DNA of 64,000 nt, taken from Ascidia mentula (lineage: Eukaryota; Chordata; Ascidiacea; Phlebobranchia; Ascidiidae). Shown piece by piece: positions 1,895 to 55,401 of the stretch. Position numbers and translations under genes: made by a program. Where the stretch lies: positions 620,001 through 684,000 of the forward strand of contig OX387198.1 in assembly GCA_947561715.1 (NCBI GenBank), written 5' to 3'. Every line of letters starts with the position of its first letter. Within the stretch, counting starts at the first letter, position 1. The notes below the pieces were generated by a model. It was not told where the DNA came from. It saw only the letters and a program-made list of their open reading frames with translations, and did not search any database.

Positions 1895-3057
1895 TTAGAT
1901 GACAAGATGAAGGGCTGCAACAGCAAGCAATGCCAACTTAAACGGATCAAATCTGACGAAACCACATGAACCAGTTGTAGTGGTTGGGATGGTTGTAGTG
2001 GTTGGTATGGTTGTAGTAGGTGGGATGGTTGTAGTAGTTGGGATGGTTGTAGTGGTTTTGATGGTTGTAGTGGTTGTTGTAGTGGTTGGAATGACTATAT
2101 TGGTTGGGTACGTTGCTGTGTTGCACCCATCTGTAGGTATTTACACAAAGAAGACGTTAGTCTTAAACATAATTCGACCTGAAAATAGTAGCCAAAAATC
2201 TGCTGTGAATCTAGATCAACCCACAACGAAAAATTAGATATCAACTCTAAAATGAACAATTTCTTATGCATCTCTTCCACGAGCATGTGGCCATTACTGC
2301 ATGCAAGTTGGGCTTCACGTCCTAACTGCAAATCAGTCATGTGGGATGTTTTCGAACAAAAGCGTTAAAAAAACAATTCTGTGGACCTGTGCTGCAAACG
2401 GATGTACAGACGCTGAAGAGACAACCTGTCGGTATTAGCGACGATCCACACGATCTGGCGATACTTCCTGTATCTGTAACACACAGGAACAAATTTGTAT
2501 ATAAAAGTACTTGATTTCGTCATTAATAGAAAAAAAATTATTTTGCATTTATTGATGATCTGCGTATAAGGACAATTACCTTCGTGTAAAACGGTCACAC
2601 AAGCATCAAGCAACCAGAAGCATGAGACCAAATGATCTTCAGACACTTGTGGACCCAAACAACCAGATCCAGGTGTTAGAAACGAGTTGTGCAAACAAAC
2701 ATAACAGTCGATGGCTTCACCTGCAATATTTAATATTTCAGATTAACCACGTTTCATCATTTCCATGTTGAACCCGAACATTTGAAGCCGACGGGCAAAG
2801 GAGTTATGGCGAAATGCAAAATTGCATTTTAATAGTTTATGTTGTCATGAATTTATCAAAGTTATTTAGGTGACTTTCTAAATCACGATCATTTCCATAA
2901 AATAAGGGAGCGATACAAGAACAAATAAAACAAATTTGAAGCTATCTGTACGGCGCCCTTGAGAAGCATTTACACACAGTGTTTGTTGTGTTTTATAATG
3001 CAACGACTTACATTTTGTAAACATAGACAAGACGATGGCCAAAATAACAATCTTCAT
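1895..3057 (-). CDS. Ly6/uPAR-like GPI-anchored protein, type B, gene 1 (intact)
   Basis: Four exons on the minus strand: E1 3012-3057, E2 2580-2720, E3 2387-2473, E4 1895-2130; 169 aa. All introns are phase 1. E1 begins MKIVILAIVLSMFTK, a signal peptide. E2 opens EAIDCYVC, the typical Ly6 start. E3 reads TGSIARSCG..TGC..VCTSVCST, and splicing restores D-GCN, the closing Ly6 signature; the LU domain has ten cysteines. E4 then gives a Thr-rich stalk and GSCGFVRFDPFKLALLAVAALHLVI-type tail (hydrophobic end = GPI signal). AATAAA (tttatt at 1824-1829) follows the stop. The E3 acceptor was chosen because it aligns with the 52 and 55 kb paralogs; another AG 36 bp upstream is possible. The intron-3 donor GTCCAC is weak in all B genes. 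Role: cell-surface protein, ligand unknown. Confidence 0.85.
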
Positions 3058-3816
3058 GTTTCGAGTTATTTAAACCACTGTGTATTCCTCCAATGCAAAA
3101 TAAATCCTAACACTGAATCACACGGAAATCAAACTACAAACCGCAAGCATCAAACAAGCAACCTCTCAGATAAACGCATTTACTTAAACCAGTTGTAATG
3201 AACTCCAACCTCCATCCCCTTTTTTCTAGCGGACGAAACTTCTGTTTCTACCAATGACGTCACATCCAATTTGTGAACATGTGACATTCTCACCTCTTTC
3301 CGTTAACTTTTAGGCCGTGTCTAAAATATCTAGTTCTTAACTACAACTTGTGGCAATGAATTCTCCAGTAAATATTCAGTATATTTATTTGTATAATTTG
3401 TTTCACTGAAGTTTATTGCATGGAAGTCATGAGAAATGCTCGTTGTTTGTCGATATTATATTATGTGTTGGCATAAATCCGCGATACATTTGGCAGATGG
3501 GAATGAATACAAATTCGAATTAATGAATCAATGATAAGTTGACAGAGTTATTGTCACGCATGGAAACGTTCGTAGTATTGATGATGGAGCTAAGCGCATC
3601 CGACCATGTTCGCAGACTTGGTTCAGACTGTGTCGTCATGCTCCAACGCAGCATTGGCTAGTCTCTGCCTTGGCTAAAATTCCGGCAAAATCTGACCACA
3701 ATTTTCACAACATAAGTTTTCTACAGAGTTTTATTGAACGTAACGTCAAGTGTTCCAATGTTACAATCAGCCAGTTAAAAAATCTTCTTGTGCCTTCGTG
3801 TTGAAAGTAGGAATGA
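3058..3816. other. intergenic spacer / promoter region of gene 1
   Basis: No gene. This is the standard spacer of the array: the GGACGAAACTTCTGTT..TGACGTCAC module about 200 bp upstream of the gene 1 ATG, then an AT-rich stretch containing AATATTCAGTATATTT, the recurrent TTGTCACGCATGG near 3550, and the 3' flank with AATAAA (tttatt 3730-3735) of the next locus. Confidence 0.6.
3255..3262. promoter_or_regulatory. TGACGTCA (CRE-type) palindrome in a conserved upstream module
   Basis: The palindrome is the ATF/CREB consensus and lies 198 bp upstream of the gene 1 start codon, preceded by CGAAACTTCTGTT. The same module in the same orientation lies upstream of other B genes at 8109, 19411, 23268, 26079, 32200, 34513, 42095 and 44475, and in changed form upstream of the 46 kb A gene (TGACGTAT at 47195). 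Because related motifs also occur in X blocks, it may be part of an old repeat rather than a selected promoter. Confidence 0.45.
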
Positions 3817-4717
3817 TTACAACACAAGGAGAAGAGATGCTACAGCAAGCAATGCCAACTTGTATGGATCAAATCTGGAGGAATTGGCTGCGTTGCATCC
3901 GTCTGTAGGGGTTAATACGACAAAATAATTTATTGGAAAAAACATATTGGAAAAATGATTTTATCACTAAAATTAAACCGAACTGAAATAATTGTTTAAC
4001 AAATAAAGAAACAATTTGCAAAGAAAATCCTTAGAAAGAGAAATCAAAAGTTTGACAACCCGTTAAAAAAATGCGGATTTTTAAAAATAGTTTTTTTTGT
4101 AGAGTTTTATTCCCAAAAATTCATATCCATGAGCATCAGCGAGCTTGAATTGTACGAAAGAAGTTTGCTACGCACACTGTGCTTAGCTGTTTACCACCCT
4201 ACATTCCATAACCCTTACGAATACTTTCTTGGTGTTTCCCTTCAACTCATGGAGGCACAAAACCGCACGCGATGTAATTCAACCCCCTCCCCCCCCCCAG
4301 TAGGGCGGGAAATTCCACTCAGCCGTGAAAATTCTTAGAAACGAGTTTGTGCAAACAAACATAACAGTCGATGGCTTCAACTGCAATATTTAATATTTCA
4401 GATTAACCATGTTTCATCATTTCCATATTAAACCCGAACATTTGATGCCGACGGGCAAAGGAGTTATGGCGAGATGCAAAACTGAATTTTAGTAGTTTAT
4501 GTTGTCATGAATTTATCAAAGTTATTCAGGCGACTTTCTAAATCATGAACAATTCCATAAAATAAGGAAGCGATACAAGAACAAATAAAATCAATTTGAT
4601 TTGAAGCAATTTGTGCGACGCCCTTGGGAAACATTTACTCACAGTTTTAGTTGTGTTTTATAACTACTTACATTTCGTGAAGATAGACAGGACGGTGGTC
4701 AAAATAACAATCTTCAT
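3817..4717 (-). pseudogene. A/B chimeric Ly6 locus missing exon 3
   Basis: An intact type A exon 4 (3817-3902: DGCNAANSSRFDPYKL.. then a hydrophobic tail) and type A intron 3 run into the 5' part of a type B exon 2 (4335-4380), followed by an intact B exon 1 (4672-4717, MKIVILTTVLSIFTK). Exon 3 and most of exon 2 are gone, and the remaining exon 2 piece has one extra T (GAGTTTGTG for GAGTTGTG), a frameshift. The same junction occurs at 26641-27544. A C-rich tract sits just before the breakpoint near 4286-4300. Confidence 0.75.
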
Positions 4718-5248
4718 GATTTGAGCTGTTTCTCACCTCTTTCCGTTAACTTCTAAAATATCTAGTTCTTAACTATAATTTGTAGAAATGAATTCTCCAG
4801 TAAATATTCAGTATATTTATTTGTATAATTTGTTTCACTAAAGTTTATTGCGTGAAAGTCATGAGAAATGATCGTAGTTTGTCGATATTATATTATGTGT
4901 TGGCATAAATCCGCGATACATTTGGCAGATTGGAATGAATACAAATTCGAATTAATGAATCAATGATAAGGTGACAGAGTTATTGTCACGCATGGAAACG
5001 TTCGTAGTATTGATGATGGAGCTAAGCGCATCCGACCATGTTCGCAGACTTGGTTCAGACTGTGTCGTCATGCTCCAACGCAGCATTGGCTAGTCTCTGC
5101 CTTGGCTAAAATTCCGGCAAAATCTGACCACAATTTTCACAACATAAGTTTTCTACAGAGTTTTATTGAACGTAACGTCAAGTGTTCCAATGTTACAATC
5201 AGCCAGTTATAAAATCTTCTTGTGCCTTCGTGTTGAAAGTACGAATGA
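4718..5248. other. intergenic spacer lacking the TGACGTCA module
   Basis: This shortened spacer retains CTCACCTCTTTCCGTTAAC and the AT-rich and GTCACGCATGG parts, but the GAAACTTCTG..TGACGTCAC module present between most other genes is deleted near 4733. No gene seen. It ends in the 3' flank (AATAAA) of the following type A locus. Confidence 0.55.
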
Positions 5249-6350
5249 TTACAACACAAGGAGAAGAGCTGCTACAGCAAGCAATGCCAACTTGTATGGA
5301 TCAAATCTGGAGGAATTGGCTGCGAGCTTGAATTGTACGAAGGAAGTTTGCTACGCACACTGTGCTTAGCTGTTTACCACCCTACATTCCATAACCCTTA
5401 CGAATACTTTCTTGGTGTTTCCCTTCAACTCATGGAGGCACAAAACCGCACGCGATGTAATTCAACCCCCTCCCCCCCCCTAGCAGAGCGGGAAATTCCA
5501 CCCAGCCGTGAAAATTCTTCCGCGCCACTTAAACTAGTTTTATTTGGAATATTGCATTAAGTATCGACTCTATATAAAATGGACAGACACGTGGTCACAA
5601 AAACTTTTATGTTGAACAAAATGCTGACATAGGTCTAAGGACAAATTTGCTTGTAAACCTAATTGTAATTTTAATCACAACTAACCGGTGGTACAGATGG
5701 ATGTGCAAACGTTGTTCACGCCTGATGCCCTGCAACCTGACTGTGAGCTTGAATAGTCACAGAGTCGATAGACTGAAGTAAGTCTGTCTGAAATGGTTTA
5801 ATTTTTGTTACAAGAACTTTAAACCAACTCGCCTAATTTTATTTAGTGTTTTATTCATATAAAACTTTTTAAATATTTACAATTACAAAAAATTCATCAA
5901 TAGGAATGGCTCTTCTGGCACTTAAGTTACGAAAGTGTTTATTGTAACCAACGTTTCGTCCACCATCCGGCGAGACTTTCTCAGGTTATGTCCAAAAAAA
6001 AGCAGAACAAAAAATTAGTTGGTAATTTTTAACTTACGTTGGTAGGTTGTAACTTTCAAACATGCATCCTCATCATTTGGGCATGGGTTCAAGTTCAGGC
6101 CTTCTTCAACTTGGAAACCCGGTGAATTGAGGTTATCAGAAGAGAAGAAGTACTGGTAACAATCAAGAGCATGACCGGCAAAAAACAAACATGAAACATC
6201 AACAAATAGAATAGACTTGGTTTCAAGCAACAGTTACACCATAACTGTACTGACGAGACATATCTGAAACTCTTCTTGCTGCATAATCCACAAAGTCAAC
6301 TTACATTGCATCAAAGTGGACAGAAGTGTGACCACAAAAATAATCTTCAT
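5249..6350 (-). pseudogene. type A Ly6 locus with truncated exon 4 and broken exon 2 acceptor
   Basis: E1 6305-6350 (MKIIFVVTLLSTLMQ), E2 6038-6175 (HALDCYQYFFSSDNLNSPGF..), E3 5686-5772 (RLCDYSSSQSGC..VCTSICTT) are in frame and match the intact A genes. Two lesions are visible. The exon 2 acceptor reads gccg instead of gcag, so the AG is lost. Exon 4 (5249-5324) keeps the stop and hydrophobic tail, but a deletion at 5324 joins it to the middle of intron 3, removing the acceptor and the DGCN codons. Expression of a normal protein is unlikely. Upstream, the sequence is cut about 130 bp before the ATG and joined to the 3' flank of the next B gene. Confidence 0.8.
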
Positions 6351-6706: not shown

Positions 6707-7873
6707 TTAGATGACAAGGTGAAGGGCTGCAACAGCAAGCAATGCCAACTTAAACAGATCAAATCTGACAAAACCACATGAACCAGTTGTAGTGGTTGGG
6801 ATGGTTGTAGTGGTTGGGATGGTTGTAGTGGTTGTTGTGGTTGTAGTAGTTGTGGTAGTTGAGATGGTTGTAGTAGGTGGGATGGTTGTAGTAGTTGGGA
6901 TAGTTATAGTGCTAGGGTATGTTGCTGTGTTGCACCCATCTGTAGGGATTTACACAAAGAAGACGTTAGTCTTAAACATAATTCGAACTGAAAATAGTAG
7001 CCAGAAATCTGCTGTGAATCTAGATCAACCCACAATGAAACACTAGATATAAACTCTAAAATGAAACAATTTCTTATGCATCTCTTCCACGAGCATGTGG
7101 CCATTACTGCATGCAAGTTGGGCTTCACGTCCTAACTGCAAATCAGTTATGTGGCATATTTTCGAAGAAAAACGTTAAAAAAACGATTCTGTGGACCTGT
7201 GCTGCAAACGGATGTACAGATGCTGAAGAGACAACCAGTCGGTATTAACGACGATCCACACGATCTGGCGATACTTCCTGTATCTGTAACACACAGGAAC
7301 AAATTTGTACATGAAAATACTTGATTTCGTCATCAATAGAAGAAATTTATTGTGTAATTATTGATGATCTGCGTATATGATATAAGGACAATTACCTTCG
7401 TGCAAAACGGTCACACAAGCATCAAACAACCCGAAGCATGACACCAAATAACCTTCCGACATTTGCGGTCCAAGACATCCAGATCCAGGTGTTAGAAACG
7501 AGTTGTGCAAACAAACATAACAGTCGATGGCTTCACCTGCAATATTAAATATTTCAGATTAACCATGTTTCATCATTTCCATATTGAACCTGAACATTTC
7601 ATACCGAGGGGCAAAGGAGTTATGGCGAGATGCAAAACTAAATTTTAATAGTTTATGTTGTCATGAATTCATCAAAGTTGTTCATGTGATTTTCTAAATC
7701 ATGAACAATTCCATAAAATAAGGAAGCGATACAAGAACAAATAAAACAAATTTGATTTGAAGTAATTTGTGCGACGCCCTTGGGAAGCATTTACTCACAG
7801 TTTTAGTTGTGTTTTATAACTACTTACATTTTGTGAAGATAGACAGGACGGTGGTCAAAATAACAATCTTCAT
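6707..7873 (-). CDS. Ly6/uPAR-like GPI-anchored protein, type B, gene 4 (intact)
   Basis: Exons E1 7828-7873, E2 7396-7536, E3 7197-7283, E4 6707-6939; 168 aa. The signal peptide is MKIVILTTVLSIFTK. The LU domain starts EAIDCYVC and keeps ten cysteines, ending in VCTSVCST-D-GCN after splicing. E2 differs from gene 1 in its second half (QMSEGYLVSCFGLFDAC). The E4 stalk alternates TTTTIP with longer Thr runs and begins TATYPSTITIP. The hydrophobic tail is conserved. AATAAA follows the stop. Its upstream spacer has the complete TGACGTCA module (8109-8116, 236 bp from the ATG). Probably a membrane-anchored surface protein; the partner cannot be read from sequence. Confidence 0.85.
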
Positions 7874-9079: not shown

Positions 9080-9858
9080 TTAGATAACAAAGTGGAGGGC
9101 TGCAACAGCAAGCAATGCCAACTTAAACGGATCAAATCTGACAAAACCACATGAACCAGTTGTAGTGGTTGGGATGGTTGTAGTGGTTTTGATGGTTGTG
9201 GTGGTTGTTGAGGTGGTTGGAATGACTATATAAGTTGGGTACGTTGCTGTGTTGCACCCATCTGTAGGGATTTACACAAAGAAGACCTTAGTCTTAAACA
9301 TAATTCGACCTAAAATTTGTAGCCAAAAATCTGCTGTGAATCTAGATAACCCCACAACGAAACACTAGATATCAACTCTAAAATGAAACATTTTTTTATG
9401 CATCTCTTCCACGAGCATGTGGACATTACTGCATGCAAGTCGGGCTTCACGTCCTAACTGCAAATCAGTTATGTGGCATATTTTCGAAGAAAAGCGTTAA
9501 AAAAACGTTTCTGCGGACCTGTGCTGCAAACAGATGTACAGATGCTGAAGAGACAACCTGTCGGTATTAGCGACGATCCACATGATCTGGCGATACTTCC
9601 TGTATCTGTTACACACAGGAACAAATTTGTACAAGAAAATACTTGATTTCGTCATTAATAGAAAAAAATTATTGTGTAATTATTGATGATCTGCGTATAT
9701 GATATAAGGACAATTACCTTCGTGTAAAACGGTCACACAAGCATCAAACAACCCGAAGCATGACACCAAATAACCTTCAGACACTTGTGGTCCAAGACAT
9801 CCAGATCCAGGTGTTAGAAACGAGTTGTGCAAACAAACATAACAGTCGATGGCTTCAT
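9080..9858 (-). pseudogene. type B Ly6 locus lacking exon 1
   Basis: E2 9718-9858, E3 9519-9605 and E4 9080-9261 are intact and in frame, with a short stalk. Intron 1 runs upstream to about 10160 and then, where exon 1 should follow TACTTAC, changes into X-block sequence. No signal-peptide exon with the family start MK(I/A).. appears before the next locus. Without exon 1 the product could not be secreted unless a distant exon is used. The exon 2 first base differs (AT instead of GT after the acceptor). Confidence 0.7.
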
Positions 9859-12544
9859 CTGCAATATTTAATATTTCAGATTAACCATGTTTCATCATTT
9901 CCATATTGAACCTGAACATTTCATACCGACGGGCAAAGGAGTTATGGCGAGATGCAAAACTGAATTTTAATAGTTTATGTTGTCAAGAATTCATCAAAGT
10001 TGTTCATGTGATTTTCTAAATCATGAACAATTCCATAAAACAAGGAAGCGATACCAGAACAAATAAAATCAATTTGATTTGAAGCAATTTGTGCGACGCC
10101 CTTGGGAAGCATTTACTCACAGTTTTTGTTGCGTTTTATAACTACTTACACTTACTTGTGTTTTATAACTACTTACCGCTCTTTGTATAATTGTGAGGAG
10201 ATCCAAACATATGGAGTGACTTTGCAAAGGTGATTTTAAGGTCACGACGCCAGCAAATCACTCTATTTAGTCCCACGGTTGATTGAACATACAAAACGCA
10301 ACGCCCAACGCCGACACCGATCGCCACGATCTTACGGAAATGGCGCAATTGTAAACCATCCAATCGTAAGACGTTTTGCATCACACGAACTGGTATTCAA
10401 TCTTGTTATCTTCACGCATGACCGCGCATGTCTAAACGTTGCGTTATCTTGGTGAAAACAAGTGCATTCGACCGTTACATAAGAAGGACAAGGGACAAAA
10501 TGTTATCTTGCTCCAACCTCAGTAAATTTGGATTGACAAATTTTCAAAATTATTTGCGGGATATTATTTATTTTTACCGATGGTTTTGCTCAAGGCGATC
10601 CCTACAAAATTGATTTCTTTTTTCCGTGGAACGAAACTTCTGTTCTGAACAGTTACGTCGCCTCTAAACGGCTCACGACTTTAGAGTGACGTAAGAGTCT
10701 CATCTAAAAATTGGTTTCCAGGTTGCATCGTTTTGTTGTTTTCTCCTTGCGTATGCCAGTGAGACAGAAAGGACCGATTGCGCAGTTCTGATGCTTGATT
10801 GTGTGCTGTATCATTATCCTGATGAAGCCTAGCTGAACAGCAGGCGAAACGTCGGTAAAAAAAGGAGGAAAGGTTATTAATATAAAAGACATAACTGTAT
10901 ACGAACAAAATGAAACGCCTTGGTGATAGTTTGAGGCCTAATTGGGCGTCGTCATAAACGCCACGTTTTGGTGGAAAACAAATAAAATCAATTTGATTTG
11001 AAGCAATTTGTGCGACGCCCTTGGGAAGCATTTACTCACAGTTTTTGTTGCGTTTTATAACTACTTACACTTACTTGTGTTTTATAACTACTTACCGCTC
11101 TTTGTATAATTGTGAGGAGATCCAAACATATGGAGTGACTTTGCAAAGGTGATTTTAAGGTCACGACGCCAGCAAATCACTCTATTTAGTCCCACGGTTG
11201 ATTGAACATACAAAACGCAACGCCCAACGCCGACACCGATCGCCACGATCTTACGGAAATGGCGCAATTGTAAACCATCCAATCGTAAGACGTTTTGCAT
11301 CACACGAACTGGTATTCAATCTTGTTATCTTCACGCATGACCGCGCATGTCTAAACGTTGCGTTATCTTGGTGAAAACAAGTGCATTCGACCGTTACATA
11401 AGAAGGACAAGGGACAAAATGTTATCTTGCTCCAACCTCAGTAAATTTGGATTGACAAATTTTCAAAATTATTTGCGGGATATTATTTATTTTTACCGAT
11501 GGTTTTGCTCAAGGCGATCCCTACAAAATTGATTTCTTTTTTCCGTGGAACGAAACTTCTGTTCTGAACAGTTACGTCGCCTCTAAACGGCTCACGACTT
11601 TAGAGTGACGTAAGAGTCTCATCTAAAAATTGGTTTCCAGGTTGCATCGTTTTGTTGTTTTCTCCTTGCGTATGCCAGTGAGACAGAAAGGACCGATTGC
11701 GCAGTTCTGATGCTTGATTGTGTGCTGTATCATTATCCTGATGATTCCTAGCTGAACAGCAGGCGAAACGTCGGTCAAAAAAAGTTACGTTTAATTGTAC
11801 AAAGAGGAAAGGTTATTAAAATAAAAGACATAACTGTATACGAACAAAATGAAACGCCTTGGTGATAGTTTGAGGCCTAATTGGGCGTTGTCATAAACGC
11901 CACGTTTTGGTGGAAAACAAGTGCATTCGACCGTGACCTCTGCCGACTTTGCCCAAACGATCTCACCTCGCTCAAATTTTTCAATTGTCAGACTTACGTA
12001 TGACGTCACAAGTGAGATGTGATGCTTGACGTTTGTTGGTCTGCAACATGGATGCCAACCTTTTTCAACCACAAGTCAAAATATCCAAGAGACCACACAA
12101 TATCTGGCAATTTTGTTCCATTCACTGTCCATGTTGTGGATTATCGTTTTTTTTGTGCTGTGATGCATATGGTTACAGGAAAAAGCAGCACCGGGTCAAA
12201 TGCATTAGCCTGAGAGGTCAGATATGTCCCAAAATTGTACCACAAAAAATGTTTTTGATAATTTTGGTGTCTTTTGCAATTCATGACTAAATCGATTGAA
12301 ATCGAAAATTATTTTGAAATGAAATGCAAAGCAGAAGAATAGGATGCTCCAGTGTTGTACAATGGGATTGCGGTTAACCTGAGTCTGTCTCTGTCTCGTG
12401 AATAAAAATACGGCAAAACCTGACCACACTTTTCACAACAAAAAGTTTTCTTCTGCCTTTTATTGAATGCAACTTTATCTGTTCCAACGTTGAAAGCTAC
12501 CAGAATAAAAAACGTCTGATTCAGCACGTTTAAACTGGAAACTG
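9859..12544. repeat. intron-1 remnant plus X blocks 2 and 3, tandem 919-bp duplication
   Basis: 10061-10979 is repeated from 10980 with a period of 919 bp. Each copy starts with about 85 bp of type B intron 1 and continues into X-block sequence. The second copy goes on further, to about 12300, where it joins the usual 3' flank of a B gene. The copies agree over at least 760 bp, then diverge near 11745. No gene is supported. Hammerhead-like hairpins lie at 10819 and 11738. Confidence 0.75.
10819..10853 (+). ncRNA. hammerhead-like core with palindromic stem III (copy)
   Basis: Same arrangement as at 1119: CTGATGA, GCCT/AGGC stem, GAAA, then CGTC with predicted cleavage after C10853. It lies within the 919-bp duplication; the partner copy at 11738 has a mismatched stem II (TTCCT for AGCCT). 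Confidence 0.35.
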
Positions 12545-13213
12545 TTAGATGACAAGGTGAAGGGCTGCAACAGCAAGCAATGCCAACTTAAACAGATCAA
12601 ATCTGACAAAGCCACATGAACCAGTTGTAGTGGTTGTTGTGGTTGTAGTAGTTGTGGTAGTTGAGATGGTTGTAGTAGGTGGGATGGTTGTAGTAGTTGG
12701 GATGGTTAAAGTGCTAGGGTATGTTGCTGTGTTGCACCCATCTGTAGGGATTTACACAAAGAAGACGTTAGTCTGAAACATAATTCGATCTGAAATTAGT
12801 AGCCAGAAATCTGCTGTGAATCTTGATTACCCCACAACGAAACACTAGATATCAACTCTAAAATGAAACATTTTAAAAATGTGCAATTTTGTTTGCACCT
12901 CTTGCACGAGCATGTGGCCATTACTGCATACATGCATGTCTGTCGGGCTTCACGGCCTAACTGCAAATCAGTCATGTGTTAAATTTTGGAGAAAAACACG
13001 CTAAAAAAACGTTTTTGCGGACCTGTGCTGCAAACAGATGTACAGATGCTGAAGAGACAACCTGTCGGTATTAGTGACGATCCACACGATCTGTCGATAC
13101 TGCCTGTATCTGTAACACACAGGAACAAATTTGTATATAAAAGTACTTGATTTCGTCATAAACAGAAAAAAAATTATTGTGCAATTATATGTGGTCAAAA
13201 TAACAATCTTCAT
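12545..13213 (-). pseudogene. type B Ly6 locus with exon 2 deleted (first)
   Basis: E4 12545-12741 and E3 13023-13109 are intact, but a deletion joins intron 2 directly to the middle of exon 1, leaving only its first codons (13191-13213, MKIVILTT). Exon 2, which carries the first five LU cysteines, is missing along with intron 1. Reading through from the remaining ATG gives about 70 residues in the wrong frame for exon 3. Two further copies of the same lesion follow at exactly 1845 and 3690 bp. Confidence 0.8.
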
Positions 13214-14422
13214 GTTTTGAGCTGTTTAAACCACTGTGTATTCCTCCAATGGAAAATAAATCCTAACACTGAATCACATGGAAATCAAACTACAAACCGC
13301 AAGTGTCAAACAAGTTACCTCTCAGATGAACGCTTTTACTTAAACCAGTTGTAATAAACTCCACCCTCCATCCCATTGTAAATTCGCCCCAATAGCTTTT
13401 TATCTGAGTTTCCTTTTTTCCAGCGCACGAAACTTTTGTTTCTACCAATGACGTCACATCCAATTTGTGAACATGTGACATTCTCACCTCTTTCCGTTAA
13501 CTTTTAAGCCGTGTCTAAAATATCTAATTCTTAACTATAACTTGTGGCAATGAATTCTCCAGTAAATATTCAGTATATTTATTTGTACAATTTGTTTCAC
13601 TGAAGTTTATTGCGTGGAAGTCATGAGAAATGATCGTTGTTTGTCGATGTTTTAGTATGTGTTGGAAAAAATCCGCGATACATTTGGCAGATGGGAATGA
13701 ATACAAATTCGAATTAATGAATCAATTATAAGTTGACAGAGTTATTGTCACGCATGGAAGCGTTTGTAGTATTGATGATGGGGCCAAGTGAATTCGACCA
13801 TGTTCGCAGACTTGGTTCAGACTGTGTCGTCATGCTCCAACGCACAGTGGCATTGGGGTTAATTTACGTTAGTCTCTGCCTTGGCTAAAATTGCGTCGAA
13901 ATCTGACCACAATTTTCACAACATAAGTTTTCTACAGAGTTTTATTTTACGTAACCTCAAGTGTTCCAATTTTACAAGCAGCCAGTGTAAAAAGCTTATT
14001 GTAACTTCGTGTTGAAAGTCCATGTTGTGGATTATCTTTTTTTGTACTGTGATGCAAATGTTTACTGGAAAAAGCAGCACTGGGCCAAATTCGTCAGCCT
14101 GAGAGGTCAGATATGTCCCAAAAATGTACCACAAATAAAAATATTTTTGGTAATTTTGGTGTGTTTGGCAATTCATGACTAAATCGAGTGAAGTCGAAAT
14201 TATTTTGAAATGAAATGCAAAGCAGAAGAAATGGATGCTCCAGTGTTGTACAATGGCATTGCGGTTAACCTGAGTCTGTCTCTGCCTGGTGAATAAAATT
14301 ACGGCAAAATCTGACTACAAATTATCACAACATTAAAGTTTCCCACTGCCTTTTATTGAATGCAACTTTATCTTTTCCAACGTGAAAAGCTGCCAGAATA
14401 GAAAAGTTTAAACTGGAAACTG

Positions 14423-15058
14423 TTAGATGATAAGGTGAAAGGCTGCAACAGCAAGCAATGCCAACTTAAACGGATCAAATCTGACGAAACCACATGAACC
14501 AGTTGTAGTGGTTGGGATGGTAGTAGTGGTTGTTGTAGTGGTTGGAATGACTATATTGGTTGGGTATGTTGCCGTGTTGCACCCATCTGTAGGTATTTAC
14601 ACAAAGAAGACGTTATTCTTAAACATAATTCGACCTGAAATTAGTAGCTAGAAATCTGCTGTGAATCTAGATAACCCAACAATGTAACACTAGATAGCAA
14701 TTCTAAAATGAAACATTTTAAAAATGTGCAATTTTGTTAGCACCTCTTGCACGAGCATGTGGCCATTACTGCATACATGCATGTCTGTCGGGCTTCACGG
14801 CCTAACTGCAAATCAGTCATGTGTTAAATTTTGGAGAAAAACACGCTAAAAAAACGTTTTTGCGGACCTGTGCTGCAAACAGATGTACAGATGCTGAAGA
14901 GACAACCTGTCGGTATTAGTGACGATCCACACGATCTGTCGATACTGCCTGTATCTGTAACACACAGGAACAAATTTGTATATAAAAGTACTTGATTTCG
15001 TCATAAACAGAAAAAAAATTATTGTGCAATTATATGTGGTCAAAATAACAATCTTCAT
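14423..15058 (-). pseudogene. type B Ly6 locus with exon 2 deleted (second)
   Basis: E4 14423-14586, E3 14868-14954, E1 remnant 15036-15058. Same deletion as the locus at 12545, but with a shorter stalk (E4 164 nt), the shortest in the array. Part of the 1845-bp tandem repeat. Confidence 0.8.
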
Positions 15059-16267
15059 GTTTTGAGCTGTTTAAACCACTGTGTATTCCTCCAATGGAAA
15101 ATAAATCCTAACACTGAATCACATGGAAATCAAACTACAAACCGCAAGTGTCAAACAAGTTACCTCTCAGATGAACGCTTTTACTTAAACCAGTTGTAAT
15201 AAACTCCACCCTCCATCCCATTGTAAATTCGCCCCAATAGCTTTTTATCTGAGTTTCCTTTTTTCCAGCGCACGAAACTTTTGTTTCTACCAATGACGTC
15301 ACATCCAATTTGTGAACATGTGACATTCTCACCTCTTTCCGTTAACTTTTAAGCCGTGTCTAAAATATCTAATTCTTAACTATAACTTGTGGCAATGAAT
15401 TCTCCAGTAAATATTCAGTATATTTATTTGTACAATTTGTTTCACTGAAGTTTATTGCGTGGAAGTCATGAGAAATGATCGTTGTTTGTCGATGTTTTAG
15501 TATGTGTTGGAAAAAATCCGCGATACATTTGGCAGATGGGAATGAATACAAATTCGAATTAATGAATCAATTATAAGTTGACAGAGTTATTGTCACGCAT
15601 GGAAGCGTTTGTAGTATTGATGATGGGGCCAAGTGAATTCGACCATGTTCGCAGACTTGGTTCAGACTGTGTCGTCATGCTCCAACGCACAGTGGCATTG
15701 GGGTTAATTTACGTTAGTCTCTGCCTTGGCTAAAATTGCGTCGAAATCTGACCACAATTTTCACAACATAAGTTTTCTACAGAGTTTTATTTTACGTAAC
15801 CTCAAGTGTTCCAATTTTACAAGCAGCCAGTGTAAAAAGCTTATTGTAACTTCGTGTTGAAAGTCCATGTTGTGGATTATCTTTTTTTGTACTGTGATGC
15901 AAATGTTTACTGGAAAAAGCAGCACTGGGCCAAATTCGTCAGCCTGAGAGGTCAGATATGTCCCAAAAATGTACCACAAATAAAAATATTTTTGGTAATT
16001 TTGGTGTGTTTGGCAATTCATGACTAAATCGAGTGAAGTCGAAATTATTTTGAAATGAAATGCAAAGCAGAAGAAATGGATGCTCCAGTGTTGTACAATG
16101 GCATTGCGGTTAACCTGAGTCTGTCTCTGCCTGGTGAATAAAATTACGGCAAAATCTGACTACAAATTATCACAACATTAAAGTTTCCCACTGCCTTTTA
16201 TTGAATGCAACTTTATCTTTTCCAACGTGAAAAGCTGCCAGAATAGAAAAGTTTAAACTGGAAACTG

Positions 16268-40091: not shown

Positions 40092-40748
40092 CTGTAACAC
40101 ACAGGAACAAATTTGTATATAAAAGTACTTGATTGACACAAATTTGGATTAATGAATCAATGATAAGTTGACAGAGTTATTGTCACGCAGGGAAGCGTTT
40201 GTAGTATTCATGATGGGGCCAAGTGAATTCGACCATGGCCGCATACTTGGTTCAGACTGTGTCGTCATGCTCCAACGCACAGTGGCATTGGGGTTAATCA
40301 ACGTTAGTCTCTGCCTTGGCTAAAATTGCGTCGAAATCTGACCACAATTTTCACAACACAACTTTTCTACTGAGTTTTATTTGAACGTAAAGTGTTCCAA
40401 TTTTACAAGCATCCAGTGTTAAAAGCTTCTTGTCCCTTCGTGTTGAAAGTCCATGTTATGGATTATCTTTTTTTGTACTGTGATGCATATGTTTACTGAA
40501 AAAAGCAGCACTGGGCCAAATTCGTCAGCCTGAGAGGTCAGATATGTCCCAAAAATGTACCACATAAAAATATTTTTGGTAATTTTGGTGTGTTTGACAA
40601 TTCATGACTGCCTCGTGACTAAAATTACGGCAAAACCTGACTACAAATTATCACAACAAAAAAGTTTCCCACTGCCTTTTATTGAATGCAACTTTATCTG
40701 TTCCAACGTGAGAGGCTGCCAGAATAGAAAAGTTTAAACTGGAAACTG

Positions 40749-41864
40749 TTAGATGACAAGGTGGAGGGCTGCAACAGCAAGCAATGCCAACTTAAACGGA
40801 TCAAATCGGACAAAACCACATGAACCAGTTGTAGTGGTTGGGATGGTTGTAGTGGTTTTGATGGTTGTGGTGGTTGTTGTAGTGGTTGGAATGACTATAT
40901 AAGTTGGGTACGTTGCTGTGTTGCACCCATCTGTAGGGATTTACACAAAGAAGACGTTAGTCTTAAACATAATTCGACCTGAAATTAGTAGCCAGAAATC
41001 TGCTGTGAATCTGGATAACCCCACAACGAAACACTAGATAGCAATTCTAAAATGAAACAATTTCTTATGCATCTCTTCCACGAGCATGTGGCCATTACTG
41101 CATGCAAGTTGGGCTTCACGTCCTAACTGCAAATCAGTTCTATGGCATATTTTAGAAGAAAAACGTTAAAAAACGTTTTTGCCGACCTGTGCTGCAAACA
41201 GATGTACAGACGCTGAAGAGACAACCTGTCGGTATTAACGACGATCCACACGATCTGGCGATACTGCCTGTATCTGTAACACACAGGAACAAATTTGTAC
41301 AAGAAAATACTTGAAGTCGTCATAAATAGAAAAATGTTTATTGTGTAATTATTGATGATCTGCGTATATGATATAAGGACAATTACCTTCGTGTAAAACG
41401 GTCACACAAGCATCAAACAACCCGAAGCATGACACCAAATAACCTTCAGACACTTGTGGTCCAAGACATCCAGATCCAGGTGTTAGAAACGAGTTGTGTA
41501 AACACATATAACAGTCGATGGCTTCACCTGCAATATTTAATATTTCAGATTAACCATGTTTCATCATTTCCATATTGAACCTGAACATTTCATACCGACG
41601 GGCAAAGGAGTTATGGCGAGATGCAAAACTGAATTTTAATGGTTTATGTTGTCATGAATTTATCAAAGTTATTCAGGCGACTTTCTAAATCATGAACAAT
41701 TCCATAAAATAAGGAAGCGATACCAGAACAAACAAAATCCATTTGATTTAAAGCAATCTGTACGGCGCCCTTGAGAAGCATTTACTCACAGTTTTAGTTG
41801 TGTTTTATAAATACTTACATTTCGTGAAGATAGACAGGACGATGGTCAAAATAACAATCTTCAT
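40749..41864 (-). CDS. Ly6/uPAR-like GPI-anchored protein, type B, gene 19 (intact)
   Basis: E1 41819-41864, E2 41387-41527, E3 41187-41273, E4 40749-40930; 151 aa. Signal peptide MKIVILTIVLSIFTK, LU domain starting EAIDCYMC (M for V between the first two cysteines), ending VCTSVCST-D-GCN. Stalk short, as in gene 16. The intron 3 donor is GTCGGC, weak like its paralogs. The 5' flank has TGACGTCA at 42095-42102. Confidence 0.85.
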
Positions 41865-43067: not shown

Positions 43068-44239
43068 TTAGATAACAAGGTGAAGGGCTGCAACAGCAAG
43101 CAATGCCAACTTAAACGGATCAAATCTGACAAAACCACATGAACCAGTTGTAGTGGTTGGGATGGTTGTAGTGGTTGGGATGGTTGTAGTGGTTGTCGTA
43201 GTTGTGGTAGTTGAGATGGTTGTAGTAGGTGGGATGGTTGTAGTAGTTGGGATGGTTATAGTGCTTGGGTATGTTGCTGTGTTGCACCCATCTGTAGGGA
43301 TTTACACAAAGAAGACGTTAGTCTGAAACATAATTCGATCTGAAATTAGTAGCCAGAAATCTGCTGTGAATCTTGATAACCCCACAACGAAACACTAGAT
43401 ATCAACTCTAAAATGAAACATTTTAAAAATGTGCAATTTTGTTAGCACCTCTTGCACGAGCATGTGGCCATTACTGCATACATGCCTGTCTGTCGGGCTT
43501 CACGGCCTAACTGCAAATCAGTCATGTGGTAAATTTTGGAGAAAAAAACGTTTTTGCGGACCTGTGCTGCAAACAGATGTACAGATGCTGAAGAGACAAC
43601 CTGTCGGTATTAGTGACGATCCACACGATCTGGCGATACTGCCTGTATCTGTAACACACAGGAACAAATTTGTATATAAAAGTACTTGATTTCGTCATAA
43701 ACAGAAAAAAATTTATTGTGCATTTATTGATGATCTGCGTATATGATATAAGGACAATTACTTTCGTGTAAAACGGTCACACAAGCATTAAACAACCAGA
43801 AGCATGACACCAAATGATCTTCAGACACTTGTGGTCCAAGACATCCAGATCCAGGTGTTAGAAACGAGTTGTGCAAACACATATAACAGTCGATGGCTTC
43901 ACCTGCAATATTAAATATTTCAGATTAACCATGTTTCATCATTTCCATATTGAACCTGAACATTTGATGCCGACGGGCAAAGGAGTTATGGCGAGATGCA
44001 AAACTGAATTTTAATGGTTTATGTTGTCATGAATTTATCAAAGTTATTCAGGCGACTTTCTAAATCATGAACAATTCCATAAAATAAGGAAGCGATACAA
44101 GAACAAATAAAACAAATTTGATTTGAAGCAATTTGTGCGACGCCCTTGGGAAGCATTTACTCACAGTTTTAGTTGTGTTTTATAACTACTTACATTTTGT
44201 GAAGATAGACAAGATGATGGCCAAAAAAACAATCCTCAT
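43068..44239 (-). CDS. Ly6/uPAR-like GPI-anchored protein, type B, gene 20 (intact, divergent signal peptide)
   Basis: E1 44194-44239, E2 43762-43902, E3 43562-43648, E4 43068-43291; 165 aa. Signal peptide MRIVFLAIILSIFTK, the most diverged among B genes. E2 starts EAIDCYMC; its last base is A rather than G (donor A|GTAATT), so residue D after the splice becomes N. Long stalk with mixed TTTTIP, IPPT and Thr-run units, like gene 4. Tail and AATAAA conserved. TGACGTCA at 44475-44482, 236 bp upstream. Confidence 0.85.
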
Positions 44240-45587: not shown

Positions 45588-46936
45588 TTACAACACAAGG
45601 AGAAGAGCTGCTACAGCAAGCAATGCCAACTTGTATGGATCAAATCTGGAGGAATTGGCTGCGTTGCATCCGTCTGTAGGGGTTAACACGACAGAATGAT
45701 TTATTGGAAAAAACATATTGGAAAAAAGATTTTATCACTAAAATTAAACCGAACTGAAATAATTGTTTAAAAAATAAAGAAACAATTTGCAAAGAAAATC
45801 ATTAGAAAGAGAAATCAAAAGTTTGACAACCCGTTTATAAAAATGTGGATTTTTAAAAATATTTTTTTGTGGATTTTTATTCCCAAAAATTCATATCCAT
45901 GAGCATCACCGAGCGTGGCTTGTACGGAGGGAAGTTTGCCATGCACACTGTGCTTAGCTGTTTACTAGCCTACATTCCATAACCCTTACGAATACTTTCT
46001 TGGTGTTTCCCTTCAACTCATGGAGGCACAAAACCGCACGCGATGTAATTCAACCCCCTCCCTCCCTAGCAGGACGGGAAATTCCACCCAGCCGTGAAAA
46101 TTCTTCCGCGCCACTTAAACTAGTTTTATTTGGAATATTGCATTAAGTATCGACTCTATATAAAATGGACAGACACGTGGTCACAAAAACTTTTATTTTG
46201 AACAAAATGCTGACATAAGTCTAAGAACAAATTTGCTTGTAAACCTAATTGTAATTTTAAACACAACTAACCGGTGGTACAGATGGATGTGCAAACGTTG
46301 TTGACGCCTGATGCCCTGCAACCTGACTGTGAGCTTGAATAGCCACAGAGTCGATAGACTGAAGTAAGTCTGCCTGAAAAGGTTTAATTTTTGTTACAAG
46401 AACTTTAAACCAACTTGCCTAATTTTATTTAGTGTTTTATTCATATAAAACTTTTTTAATATTTGCAATTACAAAAAATTCATAAATAGGAATGGCTCTT
46501 CTGGCACTTAAGTTACAAAAGTGTTTATTGTAACCAACGTTTCGTCCACCATCTGGCGAGACTTTCTCAGGTTATGTCCAAAAAAAAGCAGAACAAAAAA
46601 TTAGTTGGTAATTTTTAACTTACGTTGGTAGGTTGTAACTTTCAAACATGCATCCTCATCATTTCGGCATGGGTTCAAGTTCAGGCCTTCTACAACTTGG
46701 AAACCCGGTGAATTGAGGTCATCAGAAGAAAAGAAGTACTGGTAACAATCAAGAGCATGACCTGCAAAAAACAAACATAAAACATCAACAAATAGAATCG
46801 ACTTGGTTTCAAGCAACAGTTACACCATAACCATACTGACGAGACATATCTGAAACTCTTCTTGCTACATAATCCACAAAGTCAACTTACATTGCATCAA
46901 AGTGGACAGAAGTGTGACCACAAAAATAATCTTCAT
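45588..46936 (-). CDS. Ly6/uPAR-like GPI-anchored protein, type A, gene 21 (intact, with own 5' flank)
   Basis: E1 46891-46936, E2 46624-46761, E3 46272-46358, E4 45588-45673; 118 aa. Signal peptide MKIIFVVTLLSTLMQ, LU domain HALDCYQYFFSSDDLN..NPCRNDEDAC with eight cysteines, then VCTSICTT-D-GCN and the short GPI tail. Unlike the A copies at 6 and 21 kb, its upstream region continues past GCCAAACAAA into unique sequence with a CGAACGAAAC..TGACGTAT module (47172-47202, 240-260 bp upstream). This is therefore the likely source copy of type A. Intron 3 lacks the long C tract and has CCCTCCCTCCC. Confidence 0.85.
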
Positions 46937-48807: not shown

Positions 48808-50647
48808 TCAAAGGTTAAGGAGAAAAGCTACAATCACAAGCAATGACAATTTATGTGGAACAAATCTGATAGAACCGCATGAACCAGATGTGGTTGATGT
48901 GGTCGTCGTGATGGTCGTGATGGTCGTGGTGGTCGTGATGGTCGGGATGGTAGGGATAGTTGGGATGGTTGGGATGGTTGGGATGGTTGGGATGGTTGGG
49001 ATGGTTGCACTCCAAAACGTGTTGCATCCGTCTACAAATGAAATTTTAAATAAATTTCTTTTGGAAAAAGTGTTGTTTGCAATAACAGAACTGAACAAGA
49101 AAAATTGAAGTATACAATGTTGCTATCCCTAAACCGAGAAAGAACAATTTGTAGTGTTCAAGTGTGGATCCTGGACGCCGTTTACCAAACTTCCATCACC
49201 TGCTTGAGCCACAATTCCACGACCAATTTCCTTCTTTACTACCAAACATGCGACTCAAGCGTGACGTCACCCGATCCCCGAAAGGTGCCGAAAAACAAGC
49301 GCAAAGTTTCTTCGTGTTGCATTAAAATGTAGTTTCTTGTTTTACTTCCTTTAGTCCAATCGATGCTTGGAATGAATATTAACACGCCGCCAAAACACTT
49401 CTAACTACGAATGTTTTAGAAAAGTTCATTTAGAAAAGTTTAAAATTTTTTCCTAGCGCCAACTAAAGATGAATCAACATTTCTGATCATACAATGTTTT
49501 GTCGGCGAGCAAACATGCAGTAAGGTCGTCTGAAGGACAAGTAAATGACTACGTAAAAGTCGCATACCCGCCAATCACTACCTCCTATTTATTGCAATAG
49601 TTGATTGAACTTGAAAGGGCCTAACGACAAACTTTGACCTTGCCCAGCGTCTGTTTCGCAAAAGTCTCGCTTCAATGACGTCAAAGTAAATCATTCATGC
49701 GTGTCTCAATGGGATCCCAATTGAACGAATCCTGCTTCCTGATCAATATTTTTTAAGTGATCGAAAAATATTATAGAAATTTAAATTTTGTTTTGACATT
49801 TTCGGATTTTGTATGGAAAACTGATTAATGATGCGGGGTTTTTAACAAGCCACTGCTTACGGTGCAGTAAGGAACAGAAACCAGGCTCGTCGAAAGGTAA
49901 ATTTTACCGCAATTATTTAGATTATGTTTTACCTGAATCATAACTGGGGATTCCCCGTGTTTCAAAAATTACCTAATGCGCTGAACGACAGTGACTTAAT
50001 CAAATCACAGAAACCTTTTTCGGCAAAGGAAAACCAAAACCTGGTTGTTATTATAAAACCAATATACCTGTGGTACAGACTAATGTACAAATGGTTTCCC
50101 CGTCAGTTTCCACGCAACCTGGTGAGGTGAGTGAAGATCCACATTTTCTATGCAGCAAAATGGAGGAGCCTAAGGCAAGTACATTATTATTAAACCAAGT
50201 AGTTTCAGCTTGTCTAATTTCATTGTGATTTTAATTCATTTTAAACTTTGATATTTTGACTTACACGTGGGAAAATAATATTATGAGATTTTTAAAATAC
50301 CTTGGTAAGTAAAAACATCAACACATGCGTCCGCCTGAACTGGACACTGGGATACGGTGTGTTCTGAAACTTGGAAAGCCGGTAAATTGGGATCGCTGGA
50401 AGCGGTGAAATAACCGTAGCAACTAATAGCAGGACCTGCAAATAAAACTTTAATGTTCTCTGATCTGTAAAGTAAGGTTGGTAATTAATATCAACTTAGC
50501 TGCAAACCAAGGATGCACTCATGAGATCCATTAGGTCGGAACAATGGCCCAGTGTGCAGCTCACTTAAAATCGACCAAGTTGCATTATTAAAACGACTTA
50601 CATTGAATGAACAGAGATAGAAAGATGACAACAAAAATAATCTTCAT
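48808..50647 (-). CDS. Ly6/uPAR-like GPI-anchored protein, type C (single copy)
   Basis: E1 50602-50647, E2 50301-50435, E3 50068-50169, E4 48808-49031; 168 aa. Signal peptide MKIIFVVIFLSLFIQ. E2 begins GPAISCYGYFTASSDPN and, like type A, lacks cysteines 2 and 3; E3 (102 nt) reads KCGSSLTSPGC..ICTLVCTT, and the splice restores D-GCN. The stalk is built from a 9-bp unit (ATC CCA ACC, I-P-T, about seven copies), followed by a Thr-rich run and SGSCGSIRFVPHKLSLLVIV, a GPI-type tail. Intron 3 is 1036 bp, longer than in the relatives, so exon 4 might belong to a lost neighbour; phase and motif fit argue for one gene. Confidence 0.75.
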
Positions 50648-51772: not shown

Positions 51773-52847
51773 TTAAATGAAGACAGCATGAACCACCAAA
51801 CAAAAAAACATCAACCAATTAAATCTCATGAGTGCAGCGCAACCAGAGGTTGTTGTTGTTGTGTTACCATTGTTGGGGGTGGTGGTTGTGGTCTTACCAG
51901 AGTTGGGGGTGGTGGTGGTCATGCCACCAGAACCTCCATTGCATCCATCTGAAAAACAAGTTGAAAACGGTTTCACTCTCAGCTGTGGTTTTCTGCGATT
52001 TGCTTGAGAAGTTTCCCCACCGCAACGAAACCCCAGGAAAACGAAACACTGTTAAGTGTTATTTTTAGGAAGTTTCCGATAAGTTTTAGTTTCTAAACCA
52101 GTTTCAAATGCTTTATTATTAACATGTTTGTTAACAAACAAGAAAGGAATTAAACGAAAATATAAGGTTGCTATCACAAGACGTCATCACACTGCTGGAG
52201 TAATGATACTAAAGGGTTTATTCCAGAATTCAACGTTTCCTCATCGAGATGATGTGCGTGACGCAGGTGGAAACTCCGCATTTAAACTCACAACAATCTT
52301 ATGTACTTTGGAGGTTTGAATACTGTAATTTTACCTCAATTAAGTTGCACATGATTGCCGTTTGAACTTAAAACCAACACACCTGTGGTACAAACTGATG
52401 TACAAACATTTACCACAATAGAGCTAGCACAGCCTGTTGGTGTGTTTGCAATGCCACACGATCTTGCTATTGCAGTTGTTCCACCTGAAGCATATTTCGA
52501 CGATTATTAAACTTCAAGCATTGCTACCAGTTCAATTACACCTTTTTTGTTTATTCACGCTTTCTGATTTTTTTTTCATTTTTGATTGCTTACTGAAAGT
52601 GATTGTAACTGTCAAACATGCATCTGTTCCAGGTGCGCATGTTTGTAAGAACATACGGTCCACTGGACTTTGGCACCCCGATGACTGAGGTACGTCTGGA
52701 GTGTTGCCACAAATGTAACAATCAAGTGCAACACCTGTGAAAAAACATGTTATATTGAGATACTATGCTGTTATCTGTCAACACTATCGTTTACTCACAA
52801 CTTGAGGCAAAACTCAACAAAGCAAGGACGACACTGGTGGCCTTCAT
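51773..52847 (-). CDS. Ly6/uPAR-like GPI-anchored protein, type D (single copy)
   Basis: E1 52799-52847, E2 52594-52734, E3 52383-52484, E4 51773-51948; 155 aa. Signal peptide MKATSVVLALLSFASS. The LU domain has all ten cysteines: VALDCYICGNTPDVPQSSGC, TCAPGTDAC, IARSCG..TGC, NVCTSVCTT-D-GCN. The stalk is (TTTTPN..G)n rather than TTTTIP. The C-terminus MRFNWLMFFCLVVHAVFI is hydrophobic, as for GPI addition. Donors are better than in type B (GTAAGC, GTGTGT). This gene and E gave the alignment used to place the exon 3 acceptor. Probably closest to the ancestral form. Confidence 0.85.
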
Positions 52848-54138
52848 TCCTTTATGTGTGCGAACGTTTGAATCAAATAGTCTCGTCAAGAACAAGAAGA
52901 TTGAAAAATATCAAGTTCTGTGAGAATTTTTTAACACATTTATTGAAACAATATCATGAGTTATACTGGTATCGCAGCCACTCATCAACATCTGTGGCAT
53001 TTTCCTGTATTTATATCCACGTCTGCCTGCAGTGTGGATGCAGCCGATGCATCTACATTTAGTACAAGCACTTATGATTAACACAGCTTGTGCTTCAAGC
53101 ATTTGCTTAACACCACAAGCATTCTAGTATTCTATCCGAAAGCACTATAAATAATTTATATCCTAAAGCATTTACTAAATTAAATATGAGGCGAGGCGTT
53201 ATTTGGGACTAGGATGTCGACAAATACAAAAAATCTTCATTAAAACAAAACAGACACAGATTATTTCAGTTCGCATTCCAGCATGTATTCGAGTTGTTTT
53301 CTGTAAAAGTTGAGAACTAATTTCCCTTTTTTTAAGTCGAACAAAATTTTTGTTCCATCGATGATGTCACCTCTAATAGGCGAAGAATTGACAAAATTTC
53401 GGCCCTTTGTCTTGTTATGAAAATCTGGTCCTGGTCAAATATAATTAGTTTCAGTGTATTTTCCACTAAATGCACAAATATTCAACATATTTATGGGTAA
53501 AATAACCTGTGTTTCGGATTCTTGACTCAAAAAGTGTTCTAGATTTCATTTTTATTTTCCGGCATAATCTGACCACACTTTTCAGTGTTTTCACGTAACT
53601 TCAGCACAAAGTAAAAACGGGCACTGTTTGTTTAGTTTGCCAGCAAGCCAAAGCCACACTTACAGATGCACTGATGAAACCTCAGGGTTCGAAACTGTGT
53701 GTACCATGTTAGGTCGTTTCTGATGATAAATTGGTAGGTTTTGAATGTATAAATTGGTGTAGAATGTACAGAGAGTGCAATTACACATATTATTTTCAAC
53801 ATTCAGCAGGATTGATTTAAATGCCATCTTAAAAACAGGGTAATTGTTATTCTGTGGGTTATTGTCACGCATGGCCATGTTTTCGGTTAAAAGCCACATT
53901 TCGGTGGCGAAAATCAAGAGCACTCAACCATGGAATCTGCACACTGGAAAGACAACGTTTGACTTTTTTGCTCCTAAACCATTACAATTGCTGCGAGTCG
54001 TTTTAATCTAACCACTGTTTTCAACACACAAAGCTTTTTCACTTAGTTTTAATGCATGTGGTCTCAGTTATTACAATTCAGTTATAGCAGCTGTCGAAAT
54101 GAAAAGGTTCCCGACACATCCTGCTATACTGAGAATGA
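52848..54138. other. spacer upstream of gene D
   Basis: 52900-53290 is similar to 55470-55960 (GCCTGCAGTG.GGATGCAGCC shared), showing that D and E arose as a duplicated pair. A module with TGATGTCA is at 53362-53369, a half hammerhead (CTGATGA..GAAAC, 3' part missing) at about 53666-53695, and GTCACGCATGG near 53863. No gene. Confidence 0.5.
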
Positions 54139-55401
54139 TTACAACACAAGGAGAAGAGCTGCAACTGCAAGCAATGCCAACTTGTATGGATCAAATCTGG
54201 AGGAATTGGCTGCGTTGCATCCATCTGTAGGGGATAATACAAAATAAACAAATTTTTTGATGAAAAGGTTGTTTTTTTGAAAAAGCTTATCTCTAAAATT
54301 AAACTAACTGAAATAAAATTTTGCCTAATAAAAAAAACATACTCAAGGATATCATTTTGACCCACTTTCGAGAAAGTTTAAGAACAGAAAGCGCAGCAAA
54401 AAAGCTTTATTTAGCTACTGTTTTATAGAGCAAGAAACATGGCAAAGCTATAAACATCACCAAGCTTGGATTGTACGAAGGGAAGTTTGCCACGCAAACT
54501 GTGCTTAGCTGTTTACTAGCCTACATTCCATAGCCGTTACGAATATTTTCTTGGGGTTCCCCTTAAATTCATGGAGGGCGCAGAACCGCACGCAATGTAA
54601 TTCGATCCCCATTTCACCCAGCCGTGAAAATTCTTCCGCGTTGCTTAAACCTTACACTCAATTGATTTGGTCAAGTATTTTCGTAGGGAATGCATTGCTA
54701 CATGGCGAAGCCACATTTCAAAAATTGAAGATGCTTTTGGAAATACCAAAATGATTAAACCCTTTCTCCAATCGGTGTTTACAAGATTTTGTCGGCGAGT
54801 GTAAATAAAAAGTTACATTTAATAACGTCAATTAATTTTTGCTGAACGAACATTTACGTGCTCTTCTATGATAAAACATCAGCAATCTGTGTTAATTGCT
54901 TGAAATTCGCTGAACGGTCTCGCTTACAAATCGAACACACCTTTGTCACAGACTGACGTGCAAACACTTCCAACAGGGGAACTGACACAGCCTGACGGTG
55001 TTCCTACAATTCCGCACGATCTTGTTATGGTGGTGGTTTCGCCTGGAACATTCCAATTATTATTGGACTACAAACATTTGTATTTGGTCCACTACGGGTT
55101 TATGTGACTAACGTTCAATTGCCTTTGAGCTTACCCAAAGTTGTTGTAATCTTCAAACATCTAGTAAGTATTGATAAACAGGTTTGCAAGTGCATGCTGT
55201 CCACTGGAACTTGGCAACTCGTTGATTGGGACAGGACTGAACTGTAGTCGCAATTGTAGCAATCAATTGCAAGACCTTAAAAAAGTGGTTGTCTTATGTG
55301 ATTATCAGAGTCAGCAACTGAATTCGTCTTAGTAACAAAATATAACAAGACTTACATTGCATAGTAGAGAGCAGAAGTGTGGCAACAAATATAATTTTCA
55401 T
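54139..55401 (-). CDS. Ly6/uPAR-like GPI-anchored protein, type E (single copy)
   Basis: E1 55356-55401, E2 55135-55275, E3 54941-55042, E4 54139-54224; 124 aa. Signal peptide MKIIFVATLLLSTMQ. Ten cysteines: LAIDCYNCDYSSVLSQSTSC, TCLSILTRC, ITRSCGIVGTPSGC, SVCTSVCDK-D-GCN. Exon 4 and intron 3 are close to type A (NSSRFDPYKLALLAVAALLLVL, no stalk), while exons 2 and 3 resemble D. Thus A appears to combine an E-type exon 4 with an eight-cysteine exon 2. Flanked upstream by TGACGTCA (56040-56047). Confidence 0.85.

Follow-up and report, generated by a model that had tools for sequence, protein, structure and literature searches.

A tandem array of four-exon Ly6/uPAR-type genes on chromosome 2 of the ascidian Ascidia mentula

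A window of 64,000 nucleotides from chromosome 2 of the ascidian Ascidia mentula (assembly GCA_947561715.1, contig OX387198.1, positions 620,001 to 684,000 of the forward strand) carries a tandem array of genes that very probably encode small surface proteins of the Ly6/uPAR family, each with a single LU domain. The products are predicted to be spliced from four exons, to adopt the three-finger fold and to be held at the membrane by a glycosylphosphatidylinositol (GPI) anchor. The array extends from window position 1895, the stop codon of g01, to position 55401, the ATG of g24, and comprises 24 loci, which all lie on the minus strand. Of these, 13 are intact genes of four exons, one (g15) is altered and ten are broken copies. 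The first-pass annotation, made from the DNA letters alone, had proposed a minus-strand array of about this size, and the exon search and splicing described below return the same counts. Gene structure, copy number and decay can be read directly in the DNA, as can purifying selection within the main class of genes, type A, and a mosaic exon 4.

The loci were found by searching with exons taken from four model genes and by inspecting splice borders, and a splicing rule, which demanded GT, AG and phase 1 at every intron, was applied to 16 of them. That every one of the 39 introns in the intact models is a GT-AG intron in phase 1 is therefore true by construction. What the rule did not force is the existence of suitable sites in every one of the 13 models and the single open frame with the cysteine pattern that each of them gives, so that the four-exon plan proposed earlier, with phase-1 introns on either side of the LU exons and between them, stands with this qualification. 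Exon 1 encodes the putative signal peptide, exon 2 the region from Cys1 to Cys5, exon 3 that from Cys6 to Cys9, and exon 4 the DGCN motif with Cys10, the stalk where present and the hydrophobic end. Joining exon 3 to exon 4 restores the closing motif of the LU domain in the complete loci, as had been claimed, but the form VCTSxCxxDGCN attributed to all of them holds literally for its VCTS start in only 9 of the 13 intact genes; g04, g16 and g20 begin the motif with ICTS and g22 with ICTL. The array had further been described as hidden from the calling of open reading frames, which is nothing special, as the same holds for any gene made of short exons.

Several features of the window agree with these models. 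DGCN is read 22 times, every time on the minus strand, and blocks of 300 nucleotides are repeated 13 to 15 times with 60–100% identity to the reference copy (as seen in 20 of at least 60 families), a recurrence far beyond chance. An AATAAA lies 65 or 81 nucleotides past the stop codon in 10 of the 13 intact genes, which supports the reading of the loci as genes. By eye, all 13 products show C-x-A before [IL][DS]CY as well as a hydrophobic C-terminal end, and it is from this look of the protein ends that a signal peptide and GPI anchoring are predicted.

The intact genes comprise eight of type A, two of type B and three, g22, g23 and g24, that are each distinct. Type A is characterized by 10 Cys, a Thr-rich stalk and an exon 4 of 164 to 254 nucleotides containing repeats of 9 and 18 nucleotides. 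It is represented by g01 (1895..3057, with exons at 3057-3012, 2720-2580, 2473-2387 and 2130-1895 and a GPI-type tail), g04 (6707..7873), g09 (18113..19213), g11 (21937..23070), g13 (24701..25881), g16 (33168..34282), g19 (40749..41864) and g20 (43068..44239), all of them splicing models. Type B, made of g10 (20219..21579) and g21 (45588..46936), lacks the stalk. The diverged gene g22 (48808..50647) has a Thr/Ile/Pro stalk that matches type-A DNA, and is followed by g23 (51773..52847), also diverged, and by g24 (54139..55401).

Cysteine content is one mark of the family. The LU part contains 10 Cys in g01, g23 and g24, and 8 in g10, g21 and g22; the other seven intact type-A genes equal g01 in their total number of Cys. 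The three genes with 8 Cys lack exactly Cys2 and Cys3 and keep the remaining eight. In the LU fold Cys2 and Cys3 are disulfide-bonded to each other, and therefore a whole bond has apparently been lost in g10, g21 and g22, as expected of a true LU domain. Judged by these counts and by the bond pairing as generally known, the products show either the ten-Cys LU pattern ending in CN or that pattern minus one bonded pair.

A Pfam scan covered all 13 intact products, and its best model for the array is QVR (PF17064), the model of insect quiver/sleepless proteins. The cut-off of 27.3 is exceeded by g10 (27.8), g23 (28.2) and g24 (28.4) and narrowly missed by g21 (26.1) and g22 (26.5), while g23 also matches UPAR_LY6 (PF00021) below its cut-off. 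The profile search of spliced products that had been recommended as a check on the family gives a mixed result, with three of the 13 genes over the cut-off, two close to it and no QVR match for the eight type-A genes, which differ in this from quiver/sleepless. No Pfam cut-off was exceeded by four frames read from the window, two in the right flank and two inside the array, and a whole-genome search with the QVR family alone returned five weak places with none inside the window, because the exon pieces are too short.

A six-row profile searched against a database of size 5.8 billion returned, at E up to 0.001, one protein, P0001 of the ascidian Clavelina lepadiformis (E 6.4e-5), aligned across 61% of the query at 32% identity. 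P0001 resembles the array products in being small, in having a QVR domain and in ending with CTTDGCN and a tail with a hydrophobic part, but there is no sign of orthology to the array genes. Its matches in the Ascidia genome are of 34–46% identity with a best E of 0.005, and a second protein search started from P0001 returned P0001 alone. The mitochondrial COX1 of the assembly, on C79, was read with five genetic codes; under the ascidian code 16 AGR codons become glycine, and they fall where the protein has conserved glycines. Read in this way, COX1 comes closest to Phallusia at 90%, other ascidians reaching 76–81% and Clavelina 77%, so that both P0001 and COX1 speak against Clavelina as the source of the DNA.

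Some results weigh against the assignment to the Ly6/uPAR family and against the gene models. The eight type-A products match no Pfam model above its cut-off, and their matches to DUF753 (E 0.0019–0.016) lie below the cut-off of that model. A PDB search with the six-row A1 profile found no significant chain (best E 1.6), and a structure model of P0001, computed with no alignment, has a predicted local distance difference test score (pLDDT) of 46.5, too poor to use. As for splicing, the donor of intron 3 is weak in type A (GTCC or GTCG), and no AATAAA was found within 160 nucleotides after the stop of g22, g23 or g24. On the other side, a profile built from g10, g21, g22, g23 and g24 matches all eight intact type-A LU parts at 50.8–55.3 bits, while the best of 2000 shuffles of the g01 LU part reaches 9.0 bits, and the best of 2000 shuffles with Cys held in place 16.1 bits. 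As these scores far exceed those of the shuffles, type A is grouped with the other array genes, and the array products are, to judge by their sequences, single-LU-domain members of the Ly6/uPAR family with a predicted three-finger fold.

With its signal peptide, an LU head, a stalk and the tail, the plan points to a GPI-held surface protein. The signal peptide would be cut after C-x-A, leaving the three-finger LU domain exposed; in most genes a Thr-rich stalk of variable length would hold this domain away from the membrane, and a GPI anchor would replace the hydrophobic stretch at the C terminus. Such a protein could then act through its fingers as a surface ligand-binder or as the partner of a receptor.

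Type A is under purifying selection. For the LU codons of its eight intact genes, pN is 0.031 and pS 0.116, which gives a ratio of nonsynonymous to synonymous divergence (dN/dS) of 0.25 with a 95% interval of 0.11–0.51 from a codon bootstrap, an estimate of a kind that is disturbed by gene conversion, which is likely in the array. The ratio is still 0.25 after g05, g15 and g17 are added. The conclusion follows from this ratio set beside the type-A intron distances, 0.064 for intron 1 in nine genes and 0.072 and 0.076 for the other two introns in eleven, which are exceeded by the synonymous distance. The diversifying pressure suggested by the first-pass annotation is thus unsupported within type A.

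Type A is best fitted by a gene-dosage array, in which near-identical copies, kept alike by conversion and selection, would supply a single surface protein in large amounts, such as one of an epithelial or haemocyte coat, and would vary chiefly in the length of the stalk. Besides purifying selection, the range of exon 4 lengths and its short repeats speak for this explanation, as do three stretches of 300 nucleotides that are 100% alike and spaced by 1845 nucleotides, although these stretches sit at the broken loci g06 to g08. The dosage explanation may well be correct, without going so far as to be probable. The distinct genes at 48.8–55.4 kb may have separate roles.

Recognition, be it of gametes, of self in allorecognition or in immunity, is the function that diversifying selection would suit, the copies binding different partners through their fingers. 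The types do differ strongly, with 38–58% identity to the first A1 row (signal peptide included), and the array contains chimeras and decayed copies. Among 11 type-A genes, amino-acid-changed codons fall within codons 24–40 in 6 of 11 cases compared with 3 of 16 silent ones, by a hand count in a stretch picked post hoc (Fisher p 0.097). In this stretch, which lies between Cys3 and Cys5 and was chosen after seeing the data, dN/dS is 0.57 (0.15–2.87), compared with 0.15 (0.03–0.37) for the rest; since the intervals overlap, the choice was made post hoc and p is 0.097, relaxed constraint at codons 24–40 is a lead only. The single type-B pair, g10 and g21, has a dN/dS of 0.59 based on few changes. 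Against recognition stand the type-A ratio, the excess of synonymous over intron distance and the near likeness of the eight intact type-A LU parts, which make it unlikely.

The additional phase-1 intron directly before DGCN splits the DGCN motif, stalk and anchor off as a separate exon 4, and DNA comparison reveals a patchwork in which this anchor exon is common to genes with differing LU exons. The DNA of g24 resembles type B over exon 1 (81%) and again over late intron 3 with exon 4 (72%), and g23 across exons 2 and 3 (66%). For the type-A gene g01, the likeness to type B is confined to the last part of exon 4 and the DNA beyond it (71%). The broken locus g02 (3809..4718), found by exon search, joins exon 1 and the first third of exon 2 of type A to exon 4 of type B, and g14 (26633..27545; exon search) is a similar chimera with a type-A start and a type-B exon 4. 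These joins, together with the broken copies and the exon-4 patchwork, bear out the birth-and-death evolution with chimeras that had been suggested for the array.

Whole-genome searches covered the 195.84-Mb assembly with its 79 contigs. Close copies of the array genes were found in this array only, and distant exon-2-like places number at least 39 on chromosome 2 outside the window (hand count, E up to 0.52, one with an internal stop), the weakest of which may be chance matches. On chromosome 9, five places match the Clavelina protein P0001 with E of 0.017–0.54. The genome has 79 matches to a splice acceptor with DGCN directly behind it, compared with 33 for the reversed pattern; chromosome 2 accounts for 36 of the 79, and 22 of these are in the window. 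A phase-1 exon 3 ending just before D-G/L-CN was looked for in ten diverged stretches of chromosome 2, and such an exon is present in six of nine (exon 2 being unlocated in one of the six); the three stretches in L034 gave no such exon 3 with the pattern used, and L031 had no exon 4 within reach. Four chromosome-9 readings (one in L043, two in L044, one in L046) continue unbroken into DGCN or DLCN. Because six of nine chromosome-2 relatives have it and the four chromosome-9 readings are uninterrupted, the fourth exon seems to be a trait of the chromosome-2 family. It is tempting, if tentative, to picture chromosome 2 as the home of a large four-exon LU family, made of the 24 array loci and about 39 exon-2-like places, in which the extra intron would create an anchor and stalk cassette and recombination would reassort heads and anchors into a fast-changing surface repertoire special to tunicates; this is more doubtful than the dosage explanation of type A.

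Other observations were made in these searches. Three places in L034 (2481, 3840 and 5652, at 7.1 Mb) contain LU-like genes with very long Thr/Ser/Asn-rich stretches past DGCN. Eight near-identical matches of the 16-base acceptor-DGCN motif lie within 32 kb at C52:4623359-4655756, where they may mark a further LU array or some repeat unrelated to it, and four identical matches are spread over 257 kb at C70:4341909-4598928.

That the products are secreted toxin-like three-finger proteins, and not membrane proteins, is very improbable: P0001, the sole database relative found, is automatically named cardiotoxin 7''-like, weak snake-toxin matches below the cut-off occur in g21, g23 and g24, and g15 has lost its hydrophobic end, but LU proteins often receive toxin names automatically and, by eye, a hydrophobic stretch closes the product of every one of the 13 intact genes. 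Least credible of all is a dying cluster whose intact copies are merely young pseudogenes, for although 10 of the 24 loci are broken and one is altered, the upper bound of dN/dS is 0.51, 13 four-exon frames are open and even the diverged g22 to g24 remain so.

The altered locus g15 (30824..31969; splicing model) is of type A and has a whole LU domain, its tail being changed past FDP. Among the ten broken loci, g05 (9080..9858) and g17 (35481..36245), both of type A and assessed by exon search, splice borders and splicing, have open exons 2 to 4 and no exon 1 that could be found, and the other eight are visibly incomplete. Upstream of g05, at 9850-10260, another ATG frame ends at a GTAAGT-like site. 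In the type-B locus g03 (5243..6350; exon search and splice borders) the acceptor AG of exon 2 is lost and the acceptor of exon 4 is missing together with DGCN. The type-A loci g06 (12540..13214), g07 (14418..15059) and g08 (16263..16904) share one deletion, by which exon 1 is cut after 23 matching nucleotides and fused to intron 2 with no exon 2; g07 lies 1845 nucleotides from g06, and g08 the same distance from g07. Two loci found by exon search are lone exons, a type-B exon 4 in g12 (23839..23939) and a type-A exon 3 in g18 (39998..40096).

Between the genes, a repeat with the minus-strand reading 'ECTCFHQDNATF' occurs four times (10335-10502, 11254-11421, 29634-29801 and 38570-38737) and is perhaps a mobile element. 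Just left of the window, at L032:7806-8567 (C2:617806-618567), a reading contains the start of a fibrinogen-C domain above the Pfam cut-off and resembles intelectin. To the right of the array, in window positions 56000-64000 and in L033, the minus strand has readings that look like exons of a long coiled-coil protein, perhaps TSGA10/CEP135-like; the four frames tried gave no Pfam match above cut-off.

LU genes are described as clustered and as usually having three exons with phase-1 introns, a plan that is typical and not defining (PMC6600238, PMC4839075). The Ascidia array is similar to the vertebrate Ly6/uPAR clusters on human 8q24 and mouse chromosome 15, which, according to the same papers, consist of tandem small GPI-type genes, mostly with a single LU domain and with phase-1 introns. 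The vertebrate genes, however, typically consist of three exons, the last of which carries the GPI signal, a plan not followed here, where the extra phase-1 intron adds exon 4. Clustering is likewise reported for the 45 LU genes of Drosophila, which include GPI-LU genes (PMC6600238). Domains with 8 Cys, one disulfide short of the ten-Cys pattern, occur in mammalian multi-LU proteins such as uPAR (domain 1) and C4.4A (PMC6337849); these lack the 7-8 bond, while g10, g21 and g22 lack Cys2 and Cys3 instead. Ciona is named among animals with three-finger proteins in one paper (PMC3737499). No title among the literature matches listed names a tunicate Ly6 gene array, most subscription journals being outside the scope of that search.

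Ly6 clusters are of a kind long known and common in animals, and this one is marked by the extra intron and the loss of Cys2 and Cys3. The array genes look real and kept by selection, judging from their open frames and codon changes. Among living animals, the tunicates are those most closely related to vertebrates (PMC5465252). An array that has been mapped, and that shows an added intron, the joint loss of two Cys and anchor exons shared between genes, illustrates in one concrete instance the way LU genes spread and change among chordates.

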